A stretch of DNA of 64,000 nt from Mugil cephalus. Taxonomy: Eukaryota; Chordata; Actinopteri; Mugiliformes; Mugilidae. The notes beneath the pieces are model-generated. The model worked only from the letters and a program-made list of their open reading frames with translations, ran no database searches and was not told the origin of the DNA. Of the stretch, positions 14,533 to 57,543 are shown one piece after another (the stretch's first letter is position 1; every line of letters begins with the position of its first letter). The DNA lies in NCBI RefSeq assembly GCF_022458985.1, contig NC_061790.1:2777001-2841000 (forward strand), written 5' to 3'. The position numbers were made by a program, and so were the translations under genes.

Positions 14533-14542
14533 GAGGAAGTAG
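14533..14542 (+). promoter_or_regulatory. PU.1-like site of gene A
   Basis: GAGGAAGTAG about 105 bp upstream of the leader ATG, in a block conserved before every gene of the array. Confidence 0.4.
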
Positions 14543-14642
14543 AGGCTACATTTATCTTCATGAGACACTAGTACAGAGACTGAGAGAGTTCAGAGCATGA
14601 GACGAAGACGGAAGAACAACGGTTGAGTTCAGATCATTCTCA

Positions 14643-15765
14643 ATGTTCCTGATAGTGATGCTTCTATCAGCGGGTAAGACACAGCTAAGTTTATTGTGTC
14701 TGTTGATGTGTGTTCAGTGTATTATTTCAACATGTATATAAAATGAAGTAGAAACAAGCTTATTTTTTGCATTTTTCTCATTTTCTCAACAGCAGTAACT
14801 CAAGTTTCCACCATCACTGTCAGAGCTAGAGATGACGTCACTCTGCCTTGTGAAAATATAAAAGATCTGAATGATGAATGTTTCAGTACTACCTGGCTCT
14901 GCAGTGGTTCAAGAAATACATCAACACTGTTTGAATATGGGAAGATTCTCAAAGATGTTGGATCTAAATCTAACAGACTGAGTGTTACAACAAACTGTTT
15001 ACTGGTTATTAAGAAGGTCACAGCTGAGGATGATGGTCGTTACACCTGCAGACAGTTCATATCGGGAAAACCAGTTACAGACTCTGGTGTTCATCTGTCT
15101 GTTTTTAACCGTGAGTATTTCTATCACAATGTTTACAGGCCACCGATACAGGAAATGAAGATGAACAGTATTGTGTCCTGTCTGTGTGTTAAATTTAACA
15201 TTGTGCACTGAAACTGTTTATTGATAGATCTGAACCTGACGTCAGCAGGCGTGGGCAAAGCCAACCCACCAGGTACATCTAGAGAAACGACTTCCTTAGG
15301 AACAACAACAGTGCCACATAAAACCACAACGATGAAGTCATCCTCACCTAGAACCACCTCTGTACCAGCCACGGATGAAGCCCCCACAGTGACAGAAGAA
15401 AGCATAAATAGAGGTACGGCATTAAAAATATCATAAAAATAGTTATTTCTAAATGTCATGATCCAAAAACACCTTCAGAGCTCTGTCTGCACCAACATCG
15501 TGTTTCATGTCTTCATCCGTCTGAAGGTTTTTGGACCAGGTTCATCTTTGTTTCTGTGGGTTTAGCAGCACTCATACTAACAAATGGACGAGAACTAAAG
15601 ATGACACATTTACAGATGAAAATATTAGAAACTAAACATAAACTCCAGTTTGGGCCTTTCTGGATGGAGTTTACATGTTCTCCCTGTGTCTGCATTCCCC
15701 GGGTACTCCGGTTTCCTCCCACCTCCAAAGACATGCTCAGTGCTCAAAGACGGGCTACTTGGTGA
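14643..15765 (+). CDS. Ig-V receptor A, class I with short TM and repeat-derived tail
   Basis: First gene of the array. Exons: leader 14643-14673, V domain 14793-15110, Thr-rich stalk 15228-15413, final exon 15527-15765; 258 codons including TGA, all in phase 1 until the end. The V domain has the family cysteines (LPC, DEC, TNC, YTC-RQF) plus an extra Cys after TTWL. The last exon begins like the other class I membrane exons ([15 protein letters not shown]), but about 17 bases are missing and the donor AAAG|GTGA has become AAAGATGA. The hydrophobic run is only about 14 residues, then the frame runs into an interspersed repeat. No tyrosine motif remains. It may be a weakly anchored or secreted form, or a pseudogene; the sequence does not decide. 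Confidence 0.5.
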
Positions 15766-15915
15766 CCCTAAATTGACCCTAGGTGTGAGTGTGAATGGTT
15801 TGTCTCTGTGTTAGCGCTGTGATAGACTGGAGACCTGTCCAGGGTGTACCCCGCCTTTCACCTGATGACAGCTGGAATAGGCTCCAGTACCCACAATAAC
15901 CCTAGTGAGGATAAT
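15655..15915. repeat. Interspersed teleost repeat inserted in the tail of gene A
   Basis: Contains CCCGGGTACTCCGGTTTCCT, a GTGTGAGTGTGAATGGTT segment and CCTGTCCAGGGTGTACCCCG, which I know as a very common fish repeat. After it the text returns to the intron that precedes the GYKGH exon in other genes (gaagactaaagtagaattcc), so it inserted in that intron. Confidence 0.7.
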
Positions 15916-17938: not shown

Positions 17939-20900
17939 ATGTTTCTGTTCCTGATACTGATGCTGCCATTAGGTAAGGAAACTTGTATATAATGTCCATT
18001 TATTGACACTGATTTAAATGAGACAGTCAAGTTTTAACTTTTAAACATAATGAGTATTCCTCAAACATATTTCTAAAATGAAGCAGAAACAGAAAAGCTG
18101 AAGTTTATTTTTTGTATTTCTCTCATGATCTCAGCAGCAGTAACTCAAGTTCCCACCATCACAGTCAGAGTTGGAGATGACGTCACTCTGCCTTGTAAAA
18201 ATATGAAAGATATTAAGGATGATTGTTATAGTACGACATGGCTCCTCAGTGATTTAACATACAGAACAACGCAACTCTTTAAAGATGGGAAGATTCACAC
18301 AGACGTTGGATCTAAATCATACAGACTGAGAGTTACAACAAAATGTTCTCTGGTTATAAAGAAGGTCACAGTTGAGGATGTTGGACTTTACGCCTGCAGA
18401 CAGTTCATATCAGGACAACAAGTCACAAACTCTCTGGTTCATCTGTCTGTTATTAACAGTAAGTATTTCCATCATGATGATTTTATTAGAATCTACCGAA
18501 ACTTGGCAATAATGAGGAAGTTTAATATGAAGCCACTGGTACAGTTACATCGTGTATTTGTTGACACATGGAGGTTGTGAACATACAATAAGATGATTTA
18601 TGAGAAACCGTAAGAAGCACCACCAGTTTAACTTTGACTTTGTTTGGACATTTTGTTCCATTCTGTTTATTCAAATATTAAGTAATATATACAATATATA
18701 TACCAGTCAAAAGTTTGGACACACCTTCTCATTGAATTCAATTCCCTTATGAATTCTTACTGTGAATTTTTAGTTTAGAAAAAAGTAGGCTTTGGTACTT
18801 AGTACTTGTGGTTTTGTGGAAACAACAGATATTTTCTAAACAAGAGATAAAAAAAAAAACAAGTAGGTAATTGGTCACTGGATCCTTACTAGCTGTACTC
18901 TGCTGAGACTCGTTGACCAGAGATTGTCTAACACATGTCTCCGTGTGTCATCATTAAATCCTTCAGCAAGCTCATGCAGTGCAAAAAACTGCAGTGCATC
19001 AAGTGGCCACTTGAGGCTCCCAAAATGGAGCAAATCCCCATAGACCCCCATGTTAAAAAGCCCAAATTTACAGCATTATTAAACATGTTTACAGCCTGGT
19101 ACAAAAAATTATTTTGGTCTCAATAGTTTATTTCACTATTCATGCACAGGGGGTGAATTACTTTTTTCTAACTCATTCGTTGATTTTCTATTAAGGTTTA
19201 AAATTTTGCATAATTAAGGGCGTTCCTACTGTGAGTCACAGGCCTCGGCTAATAGGTAGCAGAGAGTTGGGTTGGCGGGTCTTAATGTTCAACCTGACCC
19301 CCATGTCCATATCTGGAGTATCTGAATGTGGGAGGAGCAAAGTTCATCCAACATGGTGACTGCAAGCTCCGCCCACTTTGGGCTTAATTTTCAAGGTTCA
19401 GAATCCAGTGGGTCACGATGACGTCACGATGGGTTTGTCCATATTATATACAGTCAGTGGCTTCAACATAAAGATTTTGTTTCTTCTTTTGTCATTTTAC
19501 GTTGGTTGGCAAAGAACTTTTAGGTGCATTAGTGCCACCTTCTGGACCCGGACATAAAGATTAAAATTCAAAAGAATTGATAAGGGGTATCAATAAGCAT
19601 GAAGGCTAATGATATCAATGAATTGAACCAGTTGGAACAAGTTCTTGATGCCCATTCCTAGTCCTCACGGTGAGCTGCAGCAGCTCCGAAACCAGACAGT
19701 GATGCAGCGACCCATGATATGGCCGGGATTGGGGGTGGAAGATTTGCTCTTCTCAGCTTCCTGAAAAAGAAAGTACAGATGTTGTTTTTCTTTCTTGGTG
19801 ATGGAGCTGGTGCTGTGTGACCAGGTGAGGTTCTCTACCTGGTGAACACCAAGGATTTTAGTCCTCTCGATGATCTCTAGGGAGGATCTGTTGATGATCA
19901 GCGGAGAGCGGTCGCTCTATGCTCCCTGAGTCGCAATCATTCTGGTTTGTCAGAGACATCTCTCTGCATAGACAGTTAAATATAGATCCTCCGTGTATGC
20001 TGATCCGTTCTCGATGCCCACCATCGGTACAGTCATGTAAACTTGTGTGTTGTGCTTGATGCGTTGTGCACTTAGCATGGTCAGCTGGTGAAACAAAGGC
20101 ATTCAGCCCTGAGGGCCCACGTGTTAGTTGTACGGTGTGAGACCACAGTCTTGTTGACTTATGTGTATTACTTGTCTTGTTTCATGTTGTTTACCATCTT
20201 TATATGTCCTTTATGTGCCCTTTATTGTGACATGTGAATAGCATTTGTAGATATGTGTGTTTTGTATCCAGGTGGGTTTGGGCTAGGTGGTGAGTGGTGG
20301 TGATGGAATCCTTGATGGAGCATTTGGGACGATGTGTTAACTGCATACAGTCCAGTGAGGGAAGCCTTTTGAGGCACTTCATAACGATGGGTGTGAATGC
20401 AACAGGTCGGTAGTCACTAAGGCAGGACATCATTGACTTCTTTGGCATGGGGACGATTGAAGTGATCTTGAGGCATGTTGGAATGACAGTGCTGCTCAGT
20501 CAGATGTTGAAGATCTCAGTGAAGACATCAGCTAGCTGGTCAGCACAATCTCTGAGCACTCAACCATCTGTGGGTTGACCCTGCGTCAAATTTTCCTCAC
20601 ATCAGCTGTCATAGGGTGTCATATCATGTCTTCATGTGCAATGAAACAAACAGATTTTTGGACAGTTTTTGAATTTTAAGATGACATCACTAAAAAAAAA
20701 GATAGGTAATTTATCATCCACAGTAATAAATATAAAAACAACTAATGCATGATGAACAATAATAAATGCAGGTAAAGTAACAAAGAAGACAAAGAAACTC
20801 TACATGTTTAATTCATTACGGGATGAGGTGATGTTTTCATGAGTGTAATCAGTTTTTGTCATGTTTTAGGAGAAGAAACAGCGACATCTAAAATCACACA

Positions 20901-21774
20901 TAAAACCACAACAGCTAAATTGAATCCAGATCAAACAGTTGAACACCGAAGCACAAATACAGGTACAGTACAAAGCAACTTTGAGTTTTTTTGACTCACT
21001 GTTACAATAACAATAAAAATACCAACGTGCTGTTTGTTTCTTGTTTTAGGAAAATGCTTAAATAAGACTTAGTCAGTGATGTTGTTAGGTTAACGGTTTA
21101 GGTTAGAAATATTCTTTTTGTATTCATTTCATTATCAGATGGTGTTGTCATGAGTATGATCAACAGTGGGTCATTATCATGTCCATGAGGACAACAAGCC
21201 ACTAATCGTGAAACTATTCAGAATCAGCAAATATTCAGTCAGTAAGAACAAGAACTTTAGAGCTCTGTCTGAACTAACGACCTGTTTCATGTCATGATCT
21301 CTCTGAAGTGTTTTGGACCAGGTTCGTCTTTGTATCTGTGGGTTTGGCAGCACTTACACTAACTGTTGTGTCGGTCAACATATGGACGAGAACTAAAGGT
21401 GAAACACTTACAGATGAAGCTTTGAGAAACTAGACATTTGGATGAATCTTAATATTCACTATGAAAGCTAAAGTAGAATTCCTCTTTTGTCTTTTTCAGG
21501 TTACAAAGGTCATGATGGAGAGATGGTGAGTTTTAAAACTGAAACATCAAATTTTGATGTGAAATTACATTAAGACAAATGAATTCTTTCTTCAGTAAAA
21601 ACTTATTTATTTTGTTATTACAGATTTTTATGTTGTAAAGGTCAAATCACAGACTGAGAGATGTTTCTATTCTGTTGACATTTTGTGTTTTCACAGGTGT
21701 ACATCAATGAAGATGACGGTGTAGTGAACTATGAAAATATTGAAGACATTTATGCTTCTGTTACATTCCACTGA
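17939..21774 (+). CDS. Ig-V receptor B, class I with ITIM (213 aa)
   Basis: Putative type I membrane receptor. Exons: leader 17939-17972 ([11 protein letters not shown]), V domain 18138-18458, stalk 20870-20962, membrane 21309-21398, short link 21500-21525, tail 21697-21774 ending TGA; 642 nt, frame open. The V domain has Cys in LPC and YAC-RQF (B and F strands), Trp in TTW and a second pair (DDC, TKC). The stalk is short and Thr-rich. The membrane segment ([19 protein letters not shown]) lacks charge, arguing against pairing with a DAP12-like adaptor. The tail holds V-N-Y-E-N-I, which meets the ITIM rule and the Grb2 YxN rule, and D-I-Y-A-S-V, which misses the -2 position. Intron 2 is swollen to 2.4 kb by repeats. 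Ligand unknown. Confidence 0.85.
18695..18850. repeat. Interspersed repeat in intron 2 of B
   Basis: Starts ACCAGTCAAAAGTTTGGACA, a motif I recognise as widespread in fish genomes. Both ends of an element were not identified. Confidence 0.35.
18960..19465. repeat. Dispersed repeat in intron 2 of B
   Basis: Holds CTTGAGGCTCCCAAAATGGA and ends near ATATTATATACAGTCAGTGG. Related text, partly in the other orientation, occurs near 26285-26530 and 38095-38340 and at about 60260-60372. Confidence 0.5.
19650..20610 (-). mobile_element. L2-type LINE remnant in intron 2 of B
   Basis: The minus-strand frame at about 20200-20448 reads [20 protein letters not shown] and KCLKRL, the conserved N-terminal reverse-transcriptase segment of L2-like elements. 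The rest is broken by stops. It lies antisense to gene B. Confidence 0.7.
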
Positions 21775-22439: not shown

Positions 22440-23862
22440 GTATGTCAAGGCAGTCAGTCGCCCACACTGTTCTTGGTTCTCTGCCCTGGGTAACTTAAGG
22501 CTCTGGATGTTTTAGGGCTATCCTAGTTGACACGCCTCAGCAACATTGCGTGGACATCGGGGGCAGCGCCTCTGGAATGGCAGACCGGGGTGGTGATCCC
22601 CATCTTTAAGAAAGTGGACCAGAGGGTATGTTCTAACTATAGGGTAATCACACTCCTCAGCCTCCCTGGGTAAATCTACTCCAGGGTGCTGGAAATGAGG
22701 GTCAATCGATAGTTGAACCTCAGATCGAGGATGAACAATGTGATTTTTGTCCCGGGCGTGGAACCATGAACCAGTTCTTTACCTTTGCTGGAGGTGCTGG
22801 AGGGAATGTAGGAGTTTCCCCAACTGGTCCATATGTGGTTTGTGGATCTGGAGAAGGCTTACGACCGTGTCCCCAGAGGAATCCAGTGGGGGGTGCTCCA
22901 GGAGTATGGGTTGGATGGCCCCTTGCTATGGGCCATTCAGTCCCAATACCAAAGGAGTGAGAGTTTGCTCCGTGTAGGCGGCTCCAAGTCGGACTCGTTC
23001 CCAGTGAGGGTTGGACTCCGCCAGGGCTGCCCTTTGTCACCGGTTTCTAGATGCAGCCAGGTGGTGGAGGCTGTCAAATTCAGTGATCGGAGGATCTCAT
23101 CTCTGCTTTTTACTGATGATGTGGTCCTCCTTGCCTCATCAAGCTACGACCTCCAGCTCTTAATGGGGCCGTGTGAAGCAGATGGGATGAAGATCAGCAC
23201 CTTCAAGTCTGAGGCCATGGTCCTCACTCGGTGGATTGCTCACTCCGGGTCGGGGAGGAGGTCCTGCCTCAAGTGGAGGAGTTCTTACTCTGGATCTTGT
23301 TCACAAGTGAGGGTAGAATGAAGCGGGTGATTGACAGATGGATCAGAGCGGCGTCTGCAGTGATGCAGGTGCTTTATTGGTCTGTCGTGGTGAAGAGAGA
23401 GCTAAGCTGAAAGGTGAAGCTCTCAATTTACCGGTCGATCTACATTCCAACCTTCACCTATGGTCATGAACTTGAGTAATAACTAAAAGAACAAGATCGC
23501 GGATACAAGCAACCGAAACGAGTTTCCTCTGCAGAGTGGCTGTGCTTGGACACTCGGGAGGAGCTCCTCCACATCAAGAGGAGTCAGTTGAGGTGGTTTG
23601 TGCATCTGGTAAGGATGCCTCCCTGACTCCTCCCATTCGAGGTGTTCTGAGCATGTCCCACTGTAAAGGAGACCTCGGGATCACACCAGGACATGATGGA
23701 GGGATTATATCTCCCATATGGCCAGGGAGCACAGCAGGATTCCTCCAGAGGAGCTAGTGGATGTGACCTGGGGAGAGAGTCGTCTGGACCTCCCAGCTGA
23801 AGCTGCTGCCCCTGTGACCCGGACCCGGATAAGCAGAAGATGACAAAATAAAATGACAATAC
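22440..23862 (+). mobile_element. Degenerate non-LTR retrotransposon
   Basis: Reverse-transcriptase blocks in order across frames: FVDLEKAYDRVPR (motif A), RVGLRQGCPLSP (motif B), SSLLFTDDVVLLAS (motif C, TDD). Material between B and C is missing. A later RSQLRWFVHLVRMPP-like piece and a GACCCGGACCCGGATAAGC end mark the 3' terminus. Stops and frameshifts make it inactive. This is a different family from the L2-like remnants. Confidence 0.85.
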
Positions 23863-23879: not shown

Positions 23880-25440
23880 GTTTAATAAAAAGAGAGATCT
23901 TGAAAACAATGTCCTTATGATTTTATGTTTTTCTCAAGAGTGTAATGGCAAATTTGACCATCTGTCCATGGTGGCGCTGTTTCACAAGATTTTCTCCTGT
24001 TTCAGACTGAGCTGCTTTGACCTCAGCTTCATCACTGATTGCACAAGCTCTGACTTTAACTTACACTCACTATCAAAGTGTTTGTTAGATTTATAGGATT
24101 GAAAAAAAAAGAGCATTAAATGAGCATTAATTTAAGAATAATGAGTGGCGTGTTTTATCATTAAAATGGTAGCATATTCTGAAATGACTTCATTCAAAAT
24201 AAATTCTGCTATTGTTCTTCACATATTTCATGATTTTATACAACACTTTTATCCAGAACACTGTTCAATTCAAACACACATGCAGTGACTATCAGGAGCA
24301 ACGTTCACTGTGTTCTGCCGCCCCCCAGTGGACAAATTAAATCTCTACATCACATGCAGTTTGGTATCAGGGCTGATACTCACAGCTCCTCTGAAGCTAA
24401 TCACTGCAACAAACTACACTCACTCATTTAGAACAGACAGGAAGCAGCAGTGTTTTAAATTTCCTGATTGAACTTATCTCCAAGGTCCAAATAACACCCA
24501 TGTTGTTTGATGTTGTTTGACATGTTGTACATTTTGTGTGTAGCTCAGCACAGGTTCAATCCGGAAGATGAATAAGATCTCGTCACCACTGACACCACAA
24601 CCTCTGAGCCAATCATCTTACTGCTGTTATTTTTAACTGGTTCCTTTTTCTGTCGGTCCTTAAGTGTCTAATGCAACAATAACACACAACAGATGTATTT
24701 ATCTATTTGTTGGTTTAAAAACATTGTCACATCAGGAGAAGCATATATACAATCAAGTTGAGGCTAATGTGATGTTTTCGTCTGTGTGCAGCAATAAAAG
24801 AGTTGAATAACTCTGAGTCTGATGTCGTCTGTCTGTTCTCATGAGCCTTGTGTCAATCTGTGGTCATGTTGTCACATCTAGCGGCTAAAGCCTCCACAGC
24901 TCTGCTGCTGCTGCTGTTGTAGCCACATTCTCACTGAAACACTTCCCTCTCAGTTCTTGCGACAAAGACGCAATGTTGAACCAGCAGGTTACAAACCCCT
25001 TAGCGATAACATGAGAATACACAAAAATGTGATCTGTGCACAACTCAGCCTTTTCATTTTACACACGTGCCAACATTAAAAACTGTCTGTACGATTCTCA
25101 GTCAATTCAAAATAGTTCATTTGCAGTTGACATCGATGTGTGAACAAAGCCCAGTGTATATTTGTTCATTTGTGGGTAACACCTCCACATCTCTACTGCT
25201 GCAGTTGTAGCCATTCTCACTAAAACACTTCCTACTCAGTTCTGAGAAAAATGACTCTGAGAAAGAGTCAACAGGTCTCTGACCACTTCATCTGACAATG
25301 AAGTATCATTATTTTGTTATTTTTGTTGGAATATGTCTCCAGGTCACCATATTAAAACCTGTAACGTAGAAATGTTAAAAAGTTTCATTTATTTTTTTCT
25401 ATCAACTAATCTTAAAGATCCGCCTAAATTAACACTGACG
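23880..25440. other. Array spacer: 3' flank of B and 5' flank of C
   Basis: No gene. Sequence from about 24170 to 25800 is repeated at about 33280-34930 (before gene E) and 43600-45240 (before gene G). It includes CTGCCGCCCCCCAGTGGACA, a GTCTGATGTCGTCTGTCTG segment and the CACCTCCACATCTCTACTGC block. Confidence 0.7.
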
Positions 25441-25461
25441 CCACAAAGAGGAGGAGACATC

Positions 25462-25474
25462 AAAGAGGAAGTAG
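25462..25474 (+). promoter_or_regulatory. PU.1-like site of gene C
   Basis: AAAGAGGAAGTAG, identical to the site of gene B. The promoter block is intact although the gene behind it is lost. Confidence 0.4.
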
Positions 25475-25563
25475 AGGCTACATTTGTCCTCATGAGACAC
25501 TAGTACAGAGACTGAGACAGTTCAGAGCGCGGAAAAACAACGGTTGAGTTCAGATCATTTAAA

Positions 25564-25597
25564 ATGTCTCTGTTCCTGATACTGATGCTGCCATTAG
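25564..25597 (+). pseudogene. Ig-V receptor C: orphan leader exon of a deleted class II gene
   Basis: The 5' block, ATG, leader [11 protein letters not shown] and GTAAGG donor are intact and match E, F and G. The first intron is cut at about 25790, and the text jumps to sequence that follows the 3' end of gene E (37605 onward). V, stalk, membrane and tail exons are absent. Its position in the alternating order and its flank show that it was a class II gene. A transcript could splice from this leader into the V exon of D, since the phases agree. Confidence 0.8.
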
Positions 25598-25794
25598 GTA
25601 AGGAAACATACAACATGCTTTAAAAACTAACTATGTATTGATATTACTAATGAAAACTGTGAAGTAACGTTAATTTACTAAAATGTTCAATTTTAGTGTT
25701 TGTGTTTAACACGGTGAGTTCAGAGTTTTCTTCAAACATGGATCTAAAATGAAGTAGAAACAGAAAAGCTGAACTCATAACTGAACTTATAAAT

Positions 25795-26765
25795 TCAACT
25801 TTTCCCCAAATTAATTTTCCGCAGTTTTCATTTGATTAATGCAATTTCCTCTATAGACACTTCTTGTAGTGTAGTTGTTGATGCCTGATGATTCGTCTCT
25901 GTTTCCGCTCAGTGGGGAGCAGGTGAGATGTCCCTCCTGCAGGGTTGTGGACTGGTGAACTGCTTCAGTTTGGTCAGTGGGGCTTTAAGTTCAGGGTCTC
26001 AGAGGATTCTCATTGGCTGATTTGAAGAGGGGCGGGGCAGGTCTCGCTAGCTCGGCTAACGTAGTAATGTAACATACCAGTATCTAAGTCACATTTCATT
26101 CATTCATTGCATCATGAATCAAGTTGACCACCTGACTAAACAAATATCTAACAGGATCAAATTATCCAAAAGGTCAAAGGTCAGAGTTTGATCTCTTCCA
26201 GAGTGTTAGCTATATTAAATCACTGAGTAAAGAGGTGATGTTGAGCTCTTTTATTGGATGAGCTTGTTGTCAGTGTATAACCTGTGACTGTATATAAACA
26301 TCCATGTTAGGGTGAGTGGAGCTGAGGCAGTTAGCAAACTGTGATGACACCCACCTGCCACTCAAAGCAGCCACACCTTTAATTATTCATAAGTTTAAGT
26401 CTTTACATACCAGACAGTAAACATGTTCATCTTGGTGTAAAGTAGGGACATTTTAACATGGAGGTCAATGGGGATTGGTTTTGAACACCTCAAGTGGTCA
26501 TTCAAGGAACTGCTCAGCTTTTAGAACTTCCACATTGACTTCATCCTTCATCCCTGATGGTTGTAGATTAGATAGGACAGGACATTGTGTCTCAGCACTG
26601 CACATGGACAGTCCCTGCATATTCATGTACTGATATCTATTTATAGAGAAGGAGCTGAAGTGGATTTAGGTTGTTGTTGGGTTTGTTTTCATATGTCTTA
26701 TAGTTTGTGTCTATTCCCATGAGAATTGAGTTATTGTGGAACCAGTGAAGCAATGGGTCACAAAC
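25795..26765. repeat. Segment duplicated from the 3' flank of a class II gene (matches 37605-38530)
   Basis: Begins CCCCAAATTAATTTTCCGCA in both places and continues for about 0.95 kb with few differences, up to the 5' flank of genes D and F. It contains a dispersed repeat (CTGTATATAAACATCCATGT) and no gene. Confidence 0.9.
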
Positions 26766-27099
26766 CCACCGAACAAAGCCCAGTGTATATTTGTTCATTA
26801 GTGGTCAACACCTCCACATCTCTACTGCTGCAGTTGTAGCCACAATCTCACTAAAACACTTCCTACTCAGTTCTGAGAAAAATGACTCTGAGAAATAGTC
26901 AACAGGTCTCTGACCACTTCATCTGACAATGAAGTATCGTTATTTTGTTATTTTTATTGGAATATGTCTCCAGGTCACCATATTAAAACCTGTAACGTAG
27001 ACATGATTTAGTTTTCTATTTTTGTATCAAATATCCTTTAGTAGAAATGAATGAGATCGGCCTACATTAACACTGATGCCACAAAGAGGAGGAGACGTC

Positions 27100-27112
27100 A
27101 AAGAGGAAGTAG
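27100..27112 (+). promoter_or_regulatory. PU.1-like site of gene D
   Basis: AAAGAGGAAGTAG about 100 bp before the ATG of gene D. Confidence 0.45.
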
Positions 27113-27212
27113 AGGCGACATTTGTCCTCATGAGACACTAGTACAGAGACTGAGAGAGTTCAGAGCGTGAGAAGAAGACGGAAGAACAACGGTTGATTTC
27201 AGATCATTTAAA

Positions 27213-30200
27213 ATGTCTCTGTTCTTGATACTGATGCTGCCATTAGGTAAGGAAACATATAACATGCTTTAGACACTAACTTTGTATTGATATTACTAAT
27301 GTAAACTGTGAAGTAACGTTAATTTACTAAAATGGTCAATTTTACTGTTTGTGTTTAACACGGTGAGTTCAGAGTTTTCTTCAAACATGGATCTAAAATG
27401 AAGTAGAAACAGAAAAGCTCAACTTTTGACTAAGTTTATTTTTTGTTTTTCTCTCATTTTCTCAACAGCAGTAACTCAAGTTTCCACCATCACTTTCAGA
27501 GTTGGAGATGACGTCACTCTGCCTTGTGACAATATAAAAGATCTGAATGATGAATGTTTCAGTACTACCTGGATCTTCAGTGGTTCAGGAAGGTCGTCAA
27601 CGTCAACGTTGTTTGAACATGGGAAGATTCACAAAGATGCTGGATCTAAATCAAACAGACTGAGTGTTACAACAAACTGTTTACTGGTTATAAAGAAGGT
27701 CACAGTTGAGGATGATGGTCGTTACACCTGCAGACAGTTCAATAAATCAGGACGACAAGTTACAGACTCTGGTGTTGATCTTTCTGTTACCAGTGAGTAT
27801 TTCCATCATAATGATTTTATTAGATTCTATTTAAATGTGACAATAATTATGGTTACAGTGAGGAAGTTTAACATGAAGCCACTGATACAGTTACATCATG
27901 TTTCTCTGTGTTGACACATGGTTTCAGATCACATCACCTTTTATTGATATAGTTTCTATAAATGAGAACATGTGATATCTTCTTATTGAACAGTTTGTTG
28001 GGTTTTGCTGTGTTTTAGAAAAAGAAAAAACACCACCACCACCAACAACAACAACGATGAAAGCTGCAACAACAACAAAGACAGTAGCAACATCATCTAA
28101 AACTCCATCACCTCCACCTCCAACAACAACTAAAATGGCAATGACACACAACAACACACCTGATCAACCATCAACAACAGTCACAGGTGAGTCTGGCTCC
28201 AACACAACCACTGGTAAATCCACCACAGTAACACATGTAGAAATAAATAAATACATGTGTGAATGAACAACAACTTTCACTAAGGTAGTTCTAGGCAGAA
28301 CGGGTCCAACCTTTTACGAGCAAGGTGTACCTAATAAAGTGGCTGGTGAGTGTACATCCATTGACTGAGGGCGAGTAAAGTAATAAAAACTATGAAAGAC
28401 TGATCTTCATCTTTCTCATATGTAACTTGAGGGTTCTGCTGCTGAGCTGCTGCCTCTGAGATCAGTCACTGAGCAGACTCTGTTCCCTTTCACACGTCCT
28501 CCAGTTTCCCTGGACTCACCTGCACCTCTATCACAATAAAAACCAACAATCTGTAAGACTTTAGCCTATTTGACATGGAAAACATATCGTGACCAAACCA
28601 ATTAAGATATTTACAATGGCAATATATTCAGTCTTATTCCATATAAATTTCATTAACCTTCAGTTGTGTGCTTTGTTTACTATCTGACCTTTCATAATAA
28701 AATAATAAAAAGTATACATACGATTATGTCAGGGCATTTTTCATAGAGACAATGTCTACACCACATTACATCACTTCATTATATTAATTGTAATAATATT
28801 CACTCAATGAACAATCAAACCTGCCCACTCTAGACCTGTGATGGACTCATGGCTGCTGTTTGGTGCTGCTGCATCTTGGTTCTGACGGTCTACAAGACAA
28901 AGTTGCTTTTTGTTCAACGTTTTACCCAGTTTATTATCATCATTTCACAAAGATGCTGGATCTAAATCAAACAGACTGAGTGTTACAACAAACTGTTAAC
29001 AAGTTATAAAGAAAGTCACAGATGAGGATGATGGTCTTTACACCTGCAGACAGTTCATATCAGGACGACAATACACAGACTCTGAGGTTCATCTGTCTGT
29101 TAGTAACAGTGAGTATTTCCATCATAATGATTTTATTAGATTCTATTTAAATGTGACAATAATTGTGGTTACAGTGAGGAAGTTTAACATGAAGCCACTG
29201 ATACAGTTACATCATGTTTCTCTGTGTTGACACATGGTTTCAGATCACATCACCTTTTATTGATATAGTTTCTATAGATGAGAACATGTGATATCTTCTT
29301 ATTGAACAGTTTGTTGGGTTTTACTGTGTTTTAGAAGAGGACACAACAACAACAATGATAAAAGCTACAATGACCACAAAGATAGTGGCAACATCATCTA
29401 AAACTCCATCAACAGTCACAGGTGAGTCTGGCTCCAACTGAACCACAGGTAAATCCACCACAGTAACACATGTAGAAATAAATAAATACATGTCTGAATG
29501 AACAACATCTTTAAAACATTGACATTAACGACAGTTAGTTCTCAGTCAGTCTCAATTAGTGAGTTCACACTTTTTTTATTCCTCACGTTTCTGTCCACGT
29601 GTCGACTGCACAACTGAAAAACATCAGACCATTAACATAAGAAACTATAGAAAGAAGAGATACGTCATATTTAGGGTCTGTGCTGGAGTGGGACTCATTT
29701 TTAGTTCTGGAGTTTCATCAGACTGACCAAATTTACATCATAACTCATCACATTTAAATTGTGTATTAATAAGTTTATTTGAAATAATTCCAATTCACTG
29801 TAAGAAGTGGTAGGTTCCCACCGTAGATTTATCATTAGGTGCATATTTATAATATAACTCTTTGAAACATCAGTTTCCAAAAAATTCAAAAAACAATAAA
29901 TAAAATATCAAACATCAAATTTGAATAAAAAATAAATATACTGAGGGCGAGTAAAGTAATAAAAACTATGAAAGACTGATCTTCATCTTTCTCATATGTA
30001 ACTTGAGGGTTCTGCTGCTGATCTGCTGCCTCTGAGATCAGTCCCTGAGCAGACTCTGTTCCCTTTCACACTTCCTCCAGTTTCCCTGGACTCACCTGCA
30101 CCTCTATCACAATAAAAACCAACAATCTGTAAGACTTTAGTCTATTTGACATGGAAAACATGTTGTGACCAAACCAATTAAGATATTTACAATGGCAAAA

Positions 30201-34560: not shown

Positions 34561-34575
34561 AGAGGAGGAGACATC

Positions 34576-34588
34576 AAAGAGGAAGTAG
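34576..34588 (+). promoter_or_regulatory. PU.1-like site of gene E
   Basis: AAAGAGGAAGTAG about 100 bp before the ATG of gene E. Confidence 0.45.
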
Positions 34589-34688
34589 AGGAAACATTTG
34601 TCCTCATGAGACACTAGTACAGAGACTGAGAGAGTTCAGAGCGCGAGAAGAAGACGGAAGAACAACGGTTGAGTTCAGATCATTTAAA

Positions 34689-38860: not shown

Positions 38861-38873
38861 AGGAGGAGACATC

Positions 38874-38886
38874 AAAGAGGAAGTAG
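38874..38886 (+). promoter_or_regulatory. PU.1-like site of gene F
   Basis: AAAGAGGAAGTAG about 100 bp before the ATG of gene F. Confidence 0.45.
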
Positions 38887-38983
38887 AGGAAACATTTGTC
38901 TTCAAGAGATAGTACAGAGACTGAGAGAGTTCAGAGCGCGAGAAGAAGACGGAAGAACAACGGTTGATTTCAGATCATTTAAA

Positions 38984-42536: not shown

Positions 42537-44880
42537 TGATATAATGTGTTAGAATATCATTTATTGTTCCATCAGGGCCAGAAATTTGTCTTTGTGTCAA
42601 CGATAAAAACAATACACCAGAAATATGTTCTGTTCAACAACGGAAATATATTTACTGTAGATAAAGTCAATCTTTTCACTGTATGTAGTTGGTTGTTTTC
42701 AGTGTTTTTCTCAACAACTTTATGATAAATTATCAGATGTAATTTTAAATTGTTCTACTGCCCCCTAGTGGACAAAGAAACCATCTACATCACATGCAGC
42801 TTGACTTCATTTTGACTTGTTGCACGAATGTTTGCCTTTTTTCATTGCTTTTTTTTTTTTTTTTGTCTTTTGTGTATTTGTGTGTATGTCACAGACTAAG
42901 AGGTGACCATGAAAGTGCATATAAACCCACTCTGTGTGTGAATCATTGCATGTGTACATGCACAAACTAGCATGACAGGAAGTTCTGGATCATTGTGTCT
43001 GACGTGAACTCACTGTGTCATGTTAGTCTTTTAGGTTACAAATATACGAAACATGTCTTTCATGTAGAGCACTAGACCAGTCAAGATAACTGTATAATTA
43101 GTGGCAGCTCCATGGAAAGACACAGCTGATGATTGGCTGCTAAACGTAAAGTGCGACACATCAGCACATTTTCATCATTAATATTATCATGGATGCAAAG
43201 AAATGAATGCATTTGTTTTGTATTAATATATAACCTGTTGTAAATATATATTTATAGTTTAATAAAAGGAGAGATCTTGAAAACAATGTGGTTTTACGTG
43301 TTTCTCAGTTCGCTCTGATTTGCAAATATTCAGGAAACACATGCAGAAACAATGAAGTCAAATGTAATGCCAAATGTGACCATCTGTTCATGGCGGCGCT
43401 GTTTCACAAGATTTTCTCCTGTTTCAGACTGAGCTGCTTTGATCTCAGCTTCATCACTGATTGCACAAGCTCTGACTTTAACTTACACTCACTATCAAAG
43501 TGTTTGTTAGATTTACAGGATTTTTTTTTTTCTCAAAAAAATATTTAGTAGAGTGGGTCCATAAATGATAATAAATTTTACTTGATTAATCAGTGACTTG
43601 TGTTAAGATTAATTCTGAAATGACTCAATTCAAAATAAATTCTGCTATTGTTCTTCACATATTTCATGATTTTATACAACACTTTTATCCAAAACACTGT
43701 TCAATTCAAACACACATGCAGTGACTATCAGGAGCAACGTTCACTGTGTTCTGCCGCCCCCCAGTGGACAAATAAAATCTCTACATCACATGCAGTTTGG
43801 TATCAGGGCTAATAGTCACAGCTCCTCTGAAGCTAACCACTGCAACAGGAAGTACTTAAATACTTAGTCCTGCAGCTACAAGGGAATCAAACTACACTCA
43901 CTCATTTAGAACAGACAGGAAGTAGCAGTGTTTTAAATTTCCTGATTGAACTTATCTCCAAGCTCCAAATAACACCCATGTTGTTTCATGTTGTACATTT
44001 TGTGTATAGTTCAGAACAGGTTCAATCCGGAAGATGAATAAGATCTCGTCACCACTGACACCACAACCTCTGAGCCAATCATCTTACTGCTGTTATTTTA
44101 AAATGGTTCCTTTTTCTGTCGGTCCTTAAGTATCTGATGCAACAATAACACACAACAGATGTATTTATCTATTTGTTGGTTTAAAAACATTGTCACATCA
44201 GGAGAAGCATATATACAATCAAGTTGAGGCTGATGTGATGTTTCCATCTGTGTGCAGCAATAAAAGAGTTGAATAACTCTGAGTCTGATGTTGTCTGTCT
44301 GTTCTCATGAGCCTTGTGTCGTTCTGTGGTCACGTTGTCACATCTAGAGACTAAAGCCTCCACAGCTCTGCTGCTGCTGCTGTTGTAGCCACATTCTCAC
44401 TGAAACACTTCCCTCTCAGTTCTTGTGACAAAGCCGCAATGATGAACCAGCAGGTTACAAACCCCTTAGAGATAACAGAATACACAAAAACGTGATCTGT
44501 TCACAACTCAACCTTTTCATTTTACACACGCGCCAACATTAAAAACTGTCTGTACGATTCTCAGTCAATTCAAAATAGTTAATTTCTAGTTGACATCAAT
44601 GTGTGAACAAAGCCCAGTGTATATTTCTTCATCATTTGTGGTCAACACCTCCACATCTCTACTGCTGCAGTTGTAGCCACGTTCTCACTAAAACACTTCC
44701 TACTCAGTTATGAGAAAAATTACTCTGACAAAGAGTCCACAGGTCTCTGACCACTTCATCTGACAATGAAGTATCATTATTTTGTTAATTTTATTGTAAC
44801 ATGTCTCCAGGTCACCATATTAAAACCTGTAACATAGACATGATTTAGAGATCCGCCTACATTAACACTGAAGCCACAAA
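42537..44880. other. Spacer between F and G
   Basis: No gene. The 3' UTR-like text and flank match those after D. A poly-T run lies at about 42850-42864. The conserved block runs from about 43600 to the 5' block of G. Confidence 0.65.
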
Positions 44881-44894
44881 GAGGAGGAGACATC

Positions 44895-44907
44895 AAAGAG
44901 GAAGTAG
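44895..44907 (+). promoter_or_regulatory. PU.1-like site of gene G
   Basis: AAAGAGGAAGTAG about 100 bp before the ATG of gene G. Confidence 0.45.
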
Positions 44908-45007
44908 AGGCTACATTTGTCCTCATGAGACACTAGTACAGAGACTGAGAGAGTTCGGAGCGTGAGAAGAAAACGGAAGAACAACGGTTGAGTCCAGATC
45001 ATTTAAA

Positions 45008-47224
45008 ATGTCTCTGTTCTTGATACTGATGCTGCCATTAGGTAAGGAAACATATAACATGCTTTAAAAACTATGTATTGATATTACTGATGAAAACTGT
45101 GAAGTAACGTTAATTTACTCAAATGGTCAATTTTACTGTTTGTGTTTAACATGGTGAGTTCAGAGTTTTCTTCAAACATGGATCTAAAATGAAGTAGAAA
45201 CAGAAAAGCTGAACTTTTGACTAAGTTTATTTTTTGTTTTTCTCTCATTTTTTCAGCAGCAGTAACTCAAGTTTCCACCATCACTGTCAGAGCTGGAGAC
45301 GACGTCACTCTGCCTTGTGACAATATGAAAGATTTGAATGATGAATGTAACAGAACTACCTGGCTCTTCAGTGGTTCAGGAACGTCGTCACCACTGTTTG
45401 AACATGGGAAGATTCACAAAGATGTTGGATCTAAATCAGACAGACTGAGTGTTACAACAAACTGTTTACTGGTTATAAAGAAGGTCACAGATGAGGATGA
45501 TGGTCGTTACACCTGCAGACAGTTCAATATATCAGGACACCAAGTTACAGACTCTGGTGTTGATCTGTCTGTTAGTAACAGTGAGTATTTTCATCATCAT
45601 GATTTTATTAGATTCTATTTAAATGTCACAATAATTGTGGTTACAGTGAGGAAGTTTACAAGGAGGTTTAACATGAAGCCACTGATACAGTTACATCATG
45701 TTTCTCTGTGTTGACACATGGTTTCAGATCACATCACCTTTTATTGATATAGTTTCTATGGATGAGAACATGTGATATCTTCTTATTGAACAGTTTGTTG
45801 GGTTTTACTGTGTTTTAGAAGAGGACACAACAACAACAATGATAAAAGCTACAATGACCACAAAGATATTGGCAACATCATCTAAAACTCCATCAACAGT
45901 CACAGGTGAGTCTGGCTCCAACTGAACCACGGGTAAATCCACCACAGTAACACATGTAGAAATAAATATATACATGTGTGAATGAACAACAACTTTAAAA
46001 CATTGACATTAATGACAGTTAGTTCTCAGTCAGTCTCAATTTGTGAGTTTGCACAGTTTTTTTATTTCTCATGTTTCTCTCTATCTGTCCGTTTCTGTGT
46101 GTTATATTTAGGGCTAAATAGTTACATATATTATAATGTTTAATTTAATGATTTTTGATTGATTTTCCAGTTACTGCGATCGTTGTAGCTGTGATTTTAG
46201 CAGCTTTCATAATAACTGTCGTAGCAGTCGTCAGATGGAAGAAAACCAAAGGTCAGAGTATTCACAGATTAAACCTTTAAAGTTTCTTCAGTTTTCTATG
46301 TTGAATGTGGACACTTTTGTCTTTTCAGGAAACAGAACACAGACGAATGAAAACACTGTGAGTCTCTAAACTGAATCTTCAAATATTTGTAGATATTTGT
46401 TTTTGGTATCACTTTGTTTTTAGGTTTCCACTGCTGGAACTAGAAAACTATAACTAGAATATGTTTGTCCAGGAACTGAACGTAAACCCTGAAGGGACTG
46501 GACCTGGTCCAGAAACCAGTCGTCCAGACAAGGTGTGAAGTTAAGCTTTTCTTATTTTATAAATGTTTCTTCTCCAACATGGAGCTGAGTCTTGTTTTCC
46601 TCTCCTTCCTTTTGTGTTTAGTCCCTCATTAGTCTCACCTTTGTCTTGTTAATCTCCCTCTGTCTTCTGTAGGCTGATCCTGCAGATAATGTTTACTACA
46701 CCTCCATCAGCTTCAACAAGGACACCAAGAGTAAGGCCAGGGTAAGCGCTCTGATTGGTTATTACTGGTCTGAATAAACATACAGCAGGCCATGTAGAGC
46801 AAGGGTGTGGACGCCTGGGGCCTTAGTGCAGGGAAACCTCTGTGGAGCAAGGCATCAGTAGCAGTAGCAGTAGACGAAACATCGGAAAGGGAGGTGCCCA
46901 CTTGAAAACCCCAATGATGTGCCGCATACTGCGTACTGCTGTTGGTTAGGCTAGATTGCTGGTGTCTTCTCGTTGATTGCTAGTTGGTAGCTGGTGACTA
47001 GCCTGCTGGTCTGGGACTGGATCTTATCCAATATGAATGTATTAAGATGAACTATCCAGTGGATGAACCCTGGTTTACTTTTTGTGTGTGTTGCTTTTGT
47101 TTGTTTCTGTGTTCAGGGTAAACCTGATGAAGGTGATGCAGTGACCTACAGCACTGTCAAAGCTCCGTCCACTTCAGCTGGAGCCTCCACTAATCCCAAC
47201 GGCCTCTACTCCTCCATCCCATAA
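45008..47224 (+). CDS. Ig-V receptor G, class II with two ITIMs (262 aa)
   Basis: Exons: leader 45008-45041, V domain 45260-45580, stalk 45819-45905, membrane 46171-46251, 46329-46357, 46473-46532, 46673-46741, 47117-47224 ending TAA; 789 nt, open. The V domain has the four family cysteines and YTC-RQF, with an NRT sequon before TTW. The stalk is the shortest of the array (87 nt). The downstream alternative donor used by E is useless here, because a TGA lies between the two. The membrane segment matches E. The tail carries ITIMs V-Y-Y-T-S-I and V-T-Y-S-T-V and a near miss G-L-Y-S-S-I; the SYIK tyrosine of E is Phe. About 250 bp of unrelated DNA is inserted in the last intron (46785-47040). 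This is the cleanest class II inhibitory receptor candidate. Confidence 0.87.
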
Positions 47225-49877: not shown

Positions 49878-52100
49878 ATGTCTCTGTGCCTGATGCTAAT
49901 GCTCCTATTGACTGGTAAGTAGACTTGATATTATAAAAATATTGTGTAATGATTATATCAGTGATTGTTTATGAAGTAACCACCATTTTTACTGTTTGTG
50001 TTTAACTCGGCGAGATTTGAGTCTTCTTCAAACGTGGATCTAAAATGAGGTAGAAACAGAAAATTTGTTTTTCAATTCTATTGCTCTAATTTTCTCAACA
50101 GCAGTAACTCATGTTTCCACCATCACTGTCAGAGTTGGAGATGACGTCACTCTGCCTTGTGACAAAATAAAAGATCTGAATGATGAATGTAATAGTACTA
50201 CCTGGCTCTTCAGTGATACAGGAAGTACATCACCACTGTTTGAATATGGGAAGATTCACGAAGATGTTGGATCTAAATCAGACAGCCTGAATGTTACAAC
50301 AAACTGTTCTCTGGTTATAAAGAAGGTCACAGATGATGATGATGGTCGTTACATCTGCAGACAGTTCAGTAAATCACAACAAGTTACAGAGTCTGATTTT
50401 CGTCTGACTGTTATTAAGAGTGAGTATTTCCATCATAACGATTTTTATCAGAATCTACAGAAACATGACAATAATTGTGGTCACAGAGAGAAAGTTTAAC
50501 ATGAAATCACTGATACAGTTACATTATCGTTCTCTGAGTGAGGTTTGACTAAGTTTATTTTTTGTTTTTCTCTCATTTTCTCAACAGCACCAATTCAAGT
50601 TTCCACCACCACTGTCAGAGTTGGAGATGACGTCACTCTGCCTTGTGACAAAATAAAAGATCTGAATGATGAATGTAATAGTACTACCTGGCTCTTCAGT
50701 GATACAGGAAGTACATCAACGCTGTTTGAATATGGGAAGATTCACGAAGATGTTGGATCTAAATCAAACAGACTGAATGTTACAACAAACTGTTCTCTGG
50801 TTATAAAGAAGGTCACAGATGAGGATGATGGTCGTTACATCTGCAGACAGTTCATATCAGGACGACGACGAGGAGCAGACTTTCAGGTTGTTCTGTCTGT
50901 TATTAACAGTGAGTATTTCCATCATAATGATTTTATTAGAGTGTACTGAAACATGATCAACACAGGATGTGAAGACACCACCAGTCGGACTAAGTTTAAG
51001 TTACTCTAAGGTGACCAGACATCCTCTTTTTGAGAACTAAAAATGTGTCAAACTCAAACACTGAAACACTTTTAAACTTGTCTGGGATACTGTTCGATTA
51101 CTACAGCCTCAAACATGTTTACATTGAATTTGCGTTGTGTTTCTCTGTGTGTCCCCCACAGAAGGGTCCTCTTTTTTCACAAACTCAAATCTGGTCACCC
51201 TAAGTTATTTAGACATCAAATGATATATACTCAATGCAACAAAGAAGAGCTTTTAACTTTTACTCTATACTTTGATCTGGAGACTAGAATACGATCAACA
51301 GTTCCAGGGCCGAGATTTTTCATTGTACCGTTTGTTGGTTTTTATCTTGTTTTAGGAGAAGAAGCAACATCAGCAGCAGCAACAACACCTACGTTGATAA
51401 CATTGTTGACAACAGCAACAACACGTAAAACAACTGATCGACCATCAGCAACTGCAACGACAACAACAGTGGAGACGCAGAAAACCACAACAGCTAAATC
51501 AACCACAGATGAAACATCCACAACGGCAGGTACATCATTAACAGTGAGACTACATCAAAACTGTCATGTCTCCCTTTTACATGTGAATATTGAAGAAAAT
51601 GGAGAATTAAGTTATTTTTAAATGTCACTATCACAGAACAACTTTGGAGCTCTGTCTGAACTAACACCCTGTTTCATGTCTTGATCTCTCTGAAGTTTTT
51701 TGGACCAGGTTTGTCTTTGTTTCTGTGGGTTTGGCAGCACTCACACTAACTGTTGTGTTGGTCAACATGTCGACGACAACTAAAGGTGAAACATTACCAG
51801 ATTAAACTTTGAGAAACGAGACGTTTGGTTGAATCTAAAGTAGAATTCCTCTTCTGTCTTTTTCAGGTTACAAAGGTCACAGTGGAGAGAATGTGAGTTC
51901 TAAAACTGAATCATCAAACATTTCTGAGAAACTTTCTACTTGAATATTAACTTAGTTTCTTTAGTTAAAACGGATTTGTGTATATACAGTTCTGGTGACA
52001 TTTCGTGTTTTCACAGGTGCGCAACAATGAAGATGAAGGTGTGGTCATCTATGAAAATGTTGATGCTGCATCTGTTAGACCCTACAGATTAACAAATTAA
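49878..52100 (+). CDS. Ig-V receptor H, class I with two V domains and ITIM (349 aa)
   Basis: Exons: leader 49878-49914 (MSLCLMLMLLLT), V1 50102-50419, V2 50588-50908, stalk 51356-51529, membrane 51696-51785, link 51867-51892, tail 52017-52100 ending TAA; 1050 nt, open. V1 and V2 are nearly identical up to YIC-RQF and then diverge (SKSQQVTES against ISGRRRGADF). They are separated by a 168-bp intron, so the V exon was duplicated in place. Both have the four cysteines and an NST sequon. The stalk is Thr/Ala-rich. The membrane segment is [19 protein letters not shown]; the usual WTRTK stop-transfer is STTTK. The tail ITIM is V-I-Y-E-N-V. Exon skipping could give one-V forms, since both V exons are phase 1 to 1. 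Confidence 0.86.
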
Positions 52101-54659: not shown

Positions 54660-54669
54660 GAGGAAGTAA
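54660..54669 (+). promoter_or_regulatory. PU.1-like site of gene I
   Basis: GAGGAAGTAA about 90 bp before the leader exon. Confidence 0.4.
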
Positions 54670-54757
54670 ACGCTACATTTTCCTTCATGAGACACTAGTA
54701 CAGAGGCTGAGAGAGTTCAGAACGTGAAGAACAATGGTTGAGATCTGATCATTTAAA

Positions 54758-57543
54758 ATATCTCTGTTCCTGATTCTGATGCTTCTATCCACAGGTAAGG
54801 AAACTCATAACATTTCATTAGACATTAGTAGACAATAGTACAAACAGAAAAGCTATACTGTTGTCTAAGTTTATTTATTTTTTTTTTTTCTATTTCTCTC
54901 ATTTTGTCAACAGCAGCAACTGAAGTTTCCACCATCACTGTCAGAGTTGGAGGTGACGTCACTTTGCCTTGTAAAAATATAAAAAACCTTAATGATAAAT
55001 GTCGCCGTATTGCCTGGCTCCTCAGTGATTCAGGAAAGACGTCAACGTTGTTTGAACATGGGAAGATTCACAAAGATGTTGGATCTAAATCAAACAGACT
55101 GAGAGTTACAAAAAAATGTTCTCTGGTTATAAAGAAGGTCAGACTTAAGGACGATGGTCTTTACACCTGCAGACAGTTCATATCAGGACGACAACAATAC
55201 ACAGACTCTCAGGTTCATCTCTCTGTTACCAACAGTGAGTATTTACATCGTAATGAATTTATCAGAATCTCCTGAAACATGACAATCTTCATGTAAATTT
55301 TCATGTGAGGACACTGACAGTTACATTATTTTTCTCTGTGTTGACACATAATATATTGTACTAAGATGACTTTCCCGCTCAAGTTACTAAAGATGATGTA
55401 AAGATTTTGTCACTGTGAAGTTTGTTGGCTTTTGTCGCATTTTAGGAGAGGAAACAACAACAAGAAGGACGACAAAAACAACACTAACTACAACTACAAC
55501 TACAACGACACTGACGACGACAACGGCTACAGCGCGTAAAACCACAGCTTACCATCCATCGACAGCAACAGCCATGGAGAAATCTACCAGAGAAACCAAT
55601 GTAGAAACAGGTGTGCGCTAAGGTCGCCTTTTAAATGATTCATTATTGTAGTTTGACTCAGTGTCCAGACGCCTTCGTGTCCACAGGTTCAGTGATTGAT
55701 TTTCCTGTGGCTTTTTATTCATGTTGTTACTGTGGATGTAAACATGGAGAATGCTCTCACTCTACGGTTTGCTGGCTTTTCTCATTTTTATTAGAGGAAA
55801 CAACATCAGTGACTCCATCTGAAACTTCATTTCCACTTAGGATATCACTGATCGTTGTAACTGTGGCTTTAGCAGCTCTCATTATAACTGTTGTAGCAGT
55901 CGTCAGGAGGAAGAGAACCAAAGGTCAGAACATTCACAGATTAAACCTGTGAAGTTTTCTTCAGTTTTCCGTATTGAACATGAGCTCTTTTTGTCTTTTA
56001 AGGAAACAGAACACAGACGGGTAAAAACACTGTGAGTCTCTAAACTGAATCATTAAATATTTGTAGATGTTTTTTTTTTTAAGTTTCCACTGCTGGAACT
56101 AGAAAACTGTAACTAGACTGTGTTTGTCCAGGAGCTGAGCGTAAACCCTGATGTGATTCAACCTGGTCGAGAAACCGGTCGTCAACAGGTATTTTTTCTC
56201 CAACAGGAACCAGTTTAACACTCTATGTTGGATCAAATTTCTTCTTTCAAGGGAGATGAAAGTCATCTGATGGAGAAACAAGAATTACAAACACTAGCTT
56301 GAGCAAGTGGGTTCTACATAGTTAGTTAAACAAAACAAACAAACAACAACAACAAAAAACTAAGACAGAAAACATGGAAATAGTTGTGGCTTACACGGTG
56401 AAACAAAATGTTCACCATTACTCTAGTACCCCCATTTTAACATTTTGACAAAAACGATAACAACAAGGATAATGATGCAATGTTCTTGTTTATATTAATC
56501 CACTCCTGCTTGTAGTTTTAAGAATTAAGTACAACTTAACTGAAGAAAATTCTGATTCTCTACACTTAACCTAAAAAAACACACTTTCAGAAGAACGATT
56601 AGTCTTAGAAATAGAATATGGTGCATGTCAAGGTGTCTGTCTACAGTACCTACAACAAATACTCCAACCCTCGGATGTTAAACGGAATCATGGTCCACAT
56701 AATTGGGCTTTTTACACAAAAAAAATTACAAAAACGAATCTTCATTGACAACATTGAGTAAATAAACCAATCACAGCACTGTGTCTGTTCGGATAGATCG
56801 TAGTTCTCTTGCAGAAGCTTTTACAAGCCGCTGCCAAGAATCATCCCCACATCATGATGCTGTCACCACCAATTATTCACCTCTTGTCCACCTCTGCATG
56901 AAGACTGAGCATAACTGCTTTATTGTGTACCATGAAGAAGAAGTGGCCTAATGTTAATGTTTACCACTTAGGGACAAGAAACCATATATGGTAACTTCAT
57001 TTACCTCAATCTTCTAGATGAAAAAGAAACATTTTGAAGAGATTTCCAAGTATTTCAGTGAGTGCTCATAAACGGTTAAAGGGAGTGAATACTTATTCAT
57101 ATATTTTCATAAAAGACATTATTTTGCAAAAATCAGTTTTCACATTGATAGTAAAATCTTTGAGTTTGTGCATTTGTTTGGTTTTTCTTGTCTGGTTTGT
57201 CTCTGTAAGTGAAGAATTTGATCCACCGTCTGTCTTCACTGTGTAGGCTGATGTTGCAGATGATGTTTACTACACCTCCATCAGATACATCAAGAACACA
57301 AACAGTAAAGCCAGGGTAACATGTCTGATTGGTTATTACTGGTCTGAACAAATATGTACAACTCTCCAGTGGATGAACCCTCATGATTTTTGTTTGTTTG
57401 TTTCTCTGGTTTCACAGGTTCGGGGTAAATCTAATGAGGGTAATGCAGTGACTTACAGCACCGTCAAAGCTCCGCCCACTTTAGCCGGAGCCTCCACTGA
57501 TCCCCAAAGCCTCTACTCCACCATCACATCACCACACATCTAA
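54758..57543 (+). CDS. Ig-V receptor I, class II with three ITIMs, ATG changed to ATA
   Basis: Exons: leader 54758-54794, V domain 54914-55234, stalk 55446-55610, stalk-membrane 55795-55923, 56003-56031, 56132-56188, 57247-57315, 57418-57543 ending TAA; 933 nt with no internal stop. The leader reads ISLFLILMLLST because the ATG conserved in the other genes is ATA. The next in-frame Met leaves only about five residues before the V domain, and a TGA closes the frame upstream. The V domain keeps the four cysteines and YTC-RQF. The stalk is the most basic and Thr-rich of the array. The tail has three ITIMs: V-Y-Y-T-S-I, V-T-Y-S-T-V and S-L-Y-S-T-I. Every other exon is clean, so the loss is recent, or an alternative first exon or non-AUG start is used. 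Confidence 0.7.

Follow-up and report, generated by a model that had tools for sequence, protein, structure and literature searches.

An array of putative paired IgV receptors in Mugil cephalus whose ectodomains appear to have moved between two signalling classes

A stretch of 64,000 nucleotides of Mugil cephalus (RefSeq assembly GCF_022458985.1, contig NC_061790.1, positions 2,777,001 to 2,841,000 of the forward strand; hereafter the window, whose own numbering is used throughout) holds an array of receptor genes with ectodomains of the immunoglobulin V type (IgV), and it raises the question of how genes with nearly the same outer part come to carry two different signalling tails, here termed class I and class II. 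Nine plus-strand loci, lettered A to I, lie between 14.6 and 57.5 kb, and their tails follow the order I, I, II (a remnant), I, II, I, II, I, II. The array is probably a germline-encoded cluster of type I membrane receptors, built as paired receptors and belonging to an unassigned teleost IgV family (by comparison with features of NITR, NILT, CD300 and CD28H). An initial annotation, made from the letters alone, had already proposed such an array, and its existence is borne out with some corrections.

Regarding its composition, the window contains ten complete V exons according to a six-frame scan whose seeds came from the window itself: the plus strand has nine (A, B, D, E, F, G, H1, H2 and I), and the tenth, J, is on the minus strand and lies beyond the array. 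The scan also gave a partial V exon at 28940-29110; Pfam recognized a V-set domain in all five V exons submitted to it (F, B, I, J and H1), with values from 2.2e-14 to 2.6e-7. The transmembrane (TM) exons separate the two classes: class I matches were found at 15529 (A), 21311 (B), 31825 (D), 42092 (F) and 51698 (H), and class II matches at 35914 (E), 46170 (G) and 55836 (I), which agrees with the tail order of the initial annotation. Identity among the TM exons is 61.7-65.6% between classes, against 86.7-93.3% among the class I genes and 81.5-96.3% among those of class II.

As for the tails, those of class II carry immunoreceptor tyrosine-based inhibitory motifs (ITIMs), with one match in E (VYYSSI, plus the variants AYSTV and LYSTI), two in G (VYYTSI, VTYSTV) and three in I (VYYTSI, VTYSTV, SLYSTI). 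Class I tails have YxN motifs of the Grb2/GADS type, YIN and YEN in B, D and F and YEN alone in H; in CD28 and CD28H, YxNx has been proposed as the site for Grb2/GADS, with the consensus Y-[EGVTA]-N-[VIMT] (PMC11599192; this and the other papers cited are drawn on in excerpt). The class I TM segment starts with FWTR in B, F and H, placing an Arg at its outer edge, and with FWSW in D. The tyrosine motifs of the tails are preserved between diverged copies.

In the ectodomains, the class boundary disappears: the V exons of D, E, F and G are 92.1-96.3% identical to one another across classes, and that of A is 90.9-92.7% identical to these four. Near identity had been claimed for the whole set; it stands for these five genes and not for B, H1, H2 and I, whose V exons share 80.5-90.3% with the other plus-strand copies. 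Near-identical ectodomains on different signalling tails, one mark of paired receptors, are thus present in D, E, F and G, and the gene models, exon identities and tail motifs together support the proposed layout of common ectodomains with two signalling ends.

The block shared by these four genes, or cassette, measures about 1.5 kb and runs from approximately 400-440 bp upstream of the start codon, through leader and V exon, to just past the stalk exon. It was delimited on the plus strand, by sequence identity and its abrupt ends, at 26771-28277 in D (here 442 bp precede the start codon, and leader, V and stalk are followed by a short piece of intron; 94.3-96.2% identical to the others), 34272-35737 in E, 38545-40021 in F and 44605-45996 in G; identity is 94.0-96.2% in all six pairs, with coding and non-coding DNA alike. 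Outside the cassette, the 5' flank of D gave no blastn match (E<=1e-3) to those of C, E and G; of the 3' parts compared by blastn (D-E, F-E and F-G), matches occurred only in a class II fragment at 28944-29603 and in an element with the terminal inverted repeats GTGTACCTAATAAAGTGGC (four matches versus 0.02 expected). This element is located at 36478-36965, 28325 and 40069, and one of its ends adjoins the 3' edge of the cassette in D and F.

The flanks, instead, repeat by class, as initially annotated. Those preceding class II loci (24170-25800, 33280-34930 and 43600-45240) are 94.7% identical for C-E, 95.5% for C-G and 96.4% for E-G; those preceding class I genes (25795-27200 and 37605-38980) are 98.5% identical for D-F, whose tail regions share 95.9%. 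In gene B the tail is of class I, yet the 5' flank resembles that of class II, with three collinear matches to E and none to F, and therefore the D/F flank looks like the newer type.

Trees of the two gene halves conflict. Approximately unbiased (AU) tests, run on B, D, E, F, G, H and I (seven genes, with A, C and J omitted), rejected grouping by class for the 5' half (p 0.008) and the D/E/F/G grouping for the TM exon (p 4.2e-6). From this reciprocal rejection it follows that, as judged from the sequence, the 5' and 3' halves do not share one history and that the ectodomain block moved between classes; the ectodomains would thus be alike because the cassette was copied between classes, and not only because a unit was duplicated. 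Some duplication of the unit did leave its mark: 21 sites of the cassette split the four genes two against two, 13 of them as D-F/E-G, 3 as D-E/F-G and 5 as D-G/E-F, and these patterns, with the class-specific flanks, fit a duplication of the D-E pair into F-G followed by some later exchange or homoplasy. By the same evidence D-E and F-G appear as recent copies of a class I plus class II unit; A, B, H and I are older and diverged. Repeated duplication of a two-gene unit, the simplest reading of the initial annotation, therefore holds for D-E and F-G and is not the whole story, since the trees of the halves conflict; of the independent origins of V and tail exons that the annotation had named as counting against it, a part was found, in that the trees disagree, as in a mosaic. 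Exchange may also have acted within gene H, whose two V exons are 95-100% alike in the middle (about 50140-50340) and 68% alike at the ends, as expected for such an event.

Turning to the gene models, seven genes (B, D, E, F, G, H and I) have open spliced frames in exon models with GT-AG introns, and they share their intron phases, which are phase 1 at the junctions of leader, V, stalk and TM and phase 0 for the class II tail exons. In class I, gene B (17939-21774, plus strand, as are all array loci) encodes 213 residues through a leader at 17939-17972, V at 18138-18458, stalk at 20870-20962, TM at 21309-21398 and cytoplasmic exons at 21500-21525 and 21697-21774. Gene D (27213-32265; 244 residues) has its leader at 27213-27246, V at 27469-27792, stalk at 28019-28186, TM at 31823-31912 and cytoplasmic exons at 31989-32014 and 32173-32265. 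Gene F (38984-42536) has six exons and 235 residues. Gene H (49878-52100) has two V exons, both included in its open frame of 349 residues: leader 49878-49914, V1 50102-50419, V2 50588-50908, stalk 51356-51529, TM 51696-51785 and cytoplasmic exons 51867-51892 and 52017-52100. The class II genes have eight exons each: E (34689-37344; 296 residues), G (45008-47224; 262 residues) and I (54758-57543; 310 residues), the last with ATA at the position where the other genes have ATG. Gene A (class I, 14643-15582; leader 14643-14673, V 14793-15110, TM remnant from 15529) looks like a pseudogene: its TM exon has a 16-base gap relative to B, D, F and H, and the donor GT is replaced by AT. Remnant C (class II, 24170-25775) consists only of the 5' flank and leader-exon region; it has neither V nor tail exon, and the six-frame scan gave no V or TM match there.

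The class II fragment at 28944-29603, on the plus strand inside the stalk-TM intron of D, is 92.6% identical to 45413-46089 of G and contains half a V exon with an in-frame stop, a stalk and the beginning of the next intron; it is flanked by two direct repeats (28364-28642 and 29940-30218, 97.5% alike), as from unequal recombination. Alternative splicing of one gene was not adopted as the source of the two forms: every gene model comes with leader and tail exons of its own, and polyA-like hexamers occur within 1.5 kb of all seven stops, with read-through still compatible.

All ten complete V exons encode four cysteines (positions 19, 29, 66-70 and 83-87), the canonical ones and a second pair, whose members fall in the BC loop immediately ahead of strand C and at the start of strand E; a disulphide between them may be inferred, and the V exon of A has one cysteine more than the rest. 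Structure models were made of five V domains, one good (mean pLDDT, the predicted local distance difference test, of 79) and four at 35-49, and for this reason cysteine distances were not used. The stalks have 29-64 residues, 39-67% of them Thr, Ser or Pro. As for selection, the ratio of nonsynonymous to synonymous differences per site (pN/pS) pooled over the nine plus-strand V exons is 1.11, and in the columns of the FG loop (93-106) it is 1.91 (codon bootstrap 1.05-6.89), which suggests diversification at this loop.

If these features are taken together, class II would recruit SHP-type phosphatases through its ITIMs and dampen the cell; class I would signal the opposite way through Grb2/GADS at YxN, perhaps aided by the Arg at the outer TM edge. 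The common ectodomain would let the activating form follow the ligand of the inhibitory one, possibly a pathogen decoy, and block exchange would maintain the similarity of the two ligand faces even as the FG loop changes. Since the cassette also reaches upstream of the start codon, expression too could be common to the two forms. A bolder version, which we put forward as doubtful, is that the unit of exchange is promoter plus ectodomain, so that one copying event would give the partner the same ligand and the same expression. In addition, read-through splicing could fuse the V of one gene in frame to the tail of the next, given that the genes follow one another head to tail and that phase 1 is common to the junctions of leader, V, stalk and TM.

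However, it should be noted that several observations weigh against the paired-receptor reading. Class I is not clearly activating: its motifs in B (VNYENI) and H (VIYENV) also fit the ITIM pattern; inspection by eye saw no immunoreceptor tyrosine-based activation motif (ITAM); the TM of D is without the Arg of B, F and H, an Arg just outside the TM is present in gene I of class II too, and the class I Arg is at the membrane edge, not mid-membrane as in activating NITRs. Three of the nine plus-strand loci are damaged (A, C and the start of I). With respect to their history, 8 of the 21 informative cassette sites are discordant with the duplication of two units, and supports in the V-exon tree are low (50-82). 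Between E and G, the identity of the last two tail exons falls to 80.4% (306 aligned bases), which is no higher than for E-I (81.7%), so that the copying of D-E and F-G was not uniform; this divergence appears to be a second break. Finally, the pN/pS values pool pairs that are not independent; the framework is also at about 1 (1.15, bootstrap 0.65-2.56), and the CDR1-like (0.66) and CDR2-like (0.79) loops, named after the complementarity-determining regions, are below 1, so that relaxed constraint stays compatible with the data.

Among the other explanations, simple tandem duplication of the two-gene unit, with no exchange between classes and with V exons alike through slow evolution or a recent split of the classes, has in its favour that D-E and F-G truly are copies and that the majority of informative cassette sites (13 of 21) group by class; we nevertheless hold it to be improbable. 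Slow protein evolution is no explanation, because the flanking and intronic DNA of the cassette is as conserved as the exons and this conservation stops abruptly; moreover, the pooled pN/pS of the V exons exceeds 1, and the TM exons and 5' halves of the seven genes reject each other's grouping in the AU tests, a result by which this explanation is already rejected. The array could also be a decaying cluster, made mostly of pseudogenes and fragments that recombination keeps alike and having little function: the broken TM of A, remnant C, the lost start of I and the fragment at 28944-29603 point that way, as does an overall pN/pS near 1. Against it, six of the nine plus-strand loci (B, D, E, F, G and H) combine an open spliced frame with a start codon and GT-AG introns, the four cysteines are kept in every complete V exon, and the tail motifs outlast the divergence of the copies; decay on this scale seems improbable as well.

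A further alternative is that the paired receptors described here are a branch of a named family, either DICP or a J-less subfamily of NITRs, in a species not surveyed before; this is somewhat unlikely. NITRs, as described in medaka (PMC2442602), also form teleost clusters with a V domain, ITIM tails and, in some members, a TM Arg. They differ in the mid-membrane position of this Arg, and the array has the extra cysteine pair of BC loop and E strand. By the definition of the same source, the J motif FGXG or TXLX(V/L/I), conserved in nearly all medaka NITRs, should stand at the end of V, and it occurs in none of the ten complete V exons, so that an assignment to NITR was rejected on this feature. 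The modelled array genes also have no exon for the NITR I domain, which has six conserved cysteines and is absent in some NITRs; the second Ig exon of J has four, counted by eye. By fold, catfish NITR V domains (NITR10/11, at ranks 3, 4, 9, 11 and 38 of the 50 matches listed) count among the closest solved structures, at a level shared by antibody V domains and 2B4; a Foldseek search of the PDB gave RAGE and antibody V domains at query-normalized TM-scores (TMq) of 0.66-0.81 among the matches listed. Searched by sequence, the best 60 of 232 PDB matches were mostly antibody light chains with JAML second, and, in a second search (best 60 of 85), JAML and butyrophilin-3A were notable among the matches covering the full length; NITR and CD300 were absent among the sequence matches listed, which excludes nothing.

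The remaining families were compared by diagnostic features. The NILTs of Atlantic salmon (PMC3022915) resemble the array in their tight cluster, their leader, V, connecting-peptide, TM and tail exons, their phase-1 Ig exons and phase-0 ITIM exons, and the Ser/Thr-rich stalk of NILT1. Their extra cysteines have a spacing of 3, 6 or 7 residues (CX3C, CX6C or CX7C), unlike the pair in all ten V exons here, about 36-41 positions apart, and a NILT-type V was rejected. The CD300/pIgR/SITR type was likewise set aside: it should have a WCR motif in strand C, and no WC occurs in any of the ten. The initial annotation could match the set to no named family such as NITR, DICP or CD300; in the features compared (J motif, cysteine spacing and WCR), the array does not agree with NITR, NILT or CD300. 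CD28H and CD28HL3 (PMC11599192) are single-V receptors with YxN in the former and an ITIM and immunoreceptor tyrosine-based switch motif (ITIM/ITSM) in the latter; the YxN feature of CD28H is present in B, D, F and H. The array differs in being made of tandem genes with common ectodomains and in being without EIP: by eye, none of its V ends has this CD28H motif in the CDR3-like loop after the F-strand cysteine. In open-licence papers no description of this receptor family was found, which does not show that none exists. Viral contigs searched with the V protein gave eight pattern matches, none confirmed, and a distant blastn search of a phage collection with the D cassette gave no match, both being poor places for a fish gene.

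Receptor pairs with a comparable history have been described elsewhere. In Xenopus (PMC5112662), the N exons of ceacam pairs are kept alike by gene conversion: genes with ITIMs and genes of opposite signal share one cluster, the V-like ligand-binding domain is homogenized and diversification falls in ligand-face regions. The differences are that conversion in ceacam301/303 is limited to the N exon, whereas the array block adds upstream sequence, leader and stalk; that those genes are in opposite orientation, whereas the array genes all run in one direction; and that the second tail there is ITAM or ITAM-like, and of YxN type here. Siglec-11 and Siglec-16 (PMC5701461) form an inhibitory/activating pair with an extracellular region made alike by gene conversion, in another receptor family and species, and are likened here by description only.

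Outside the array, gene J (60416-62392, minus strand) is a diverged relative with leader, V, a second Ig exon (61810-61550), TM (61377-61270) and class-II-like tail exons, and is possibly a two-domain, ancestor-like form. Its spliced model loses frame at the fourth-last junction, and the tail was therefore read exon by exon, by eye, giving the motifs VCYASI and VIYSAV; the second Ig exon scored 21.1 bits for Pfam C1-set against a cut-off of 21, too marginal to use, and had no PDB sequence match at E 0.1. At the opposite end of the window, two tandem cytochrome P450 genes, presumably of CYP2 type, lie on the minus strand at 534-10081, with 534-3464 and 7196-10081 being 90.7% identical and a Pfam p450 match at 6695-7057. 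Remnants of open reading frames at 11029-11874, 19665-20499 and 22518-23757 resemble, by eye, the reverse transcriptase of long interspersed nuclear elements.

In conclusion, clusters of paired receptors whose ectodomains are kept alike by exchange are already known, and paired receptors are usually described as ITIM/ITAM-adaptor pairs. What appears less usual at this locus is the presence of upstream sequence inside the exchanged block and the pairing of ITIM with YxN, which the array would add to paired receptors. If the genes are expressed, they would offer a compact natural case in which ectodomains pass from one signalling end to the other and the sharp edges of the block reveal what the exchange comprises; and, as upstream sequence travels with the ectodomain, a shared ligand and co-expression could be tested at once.

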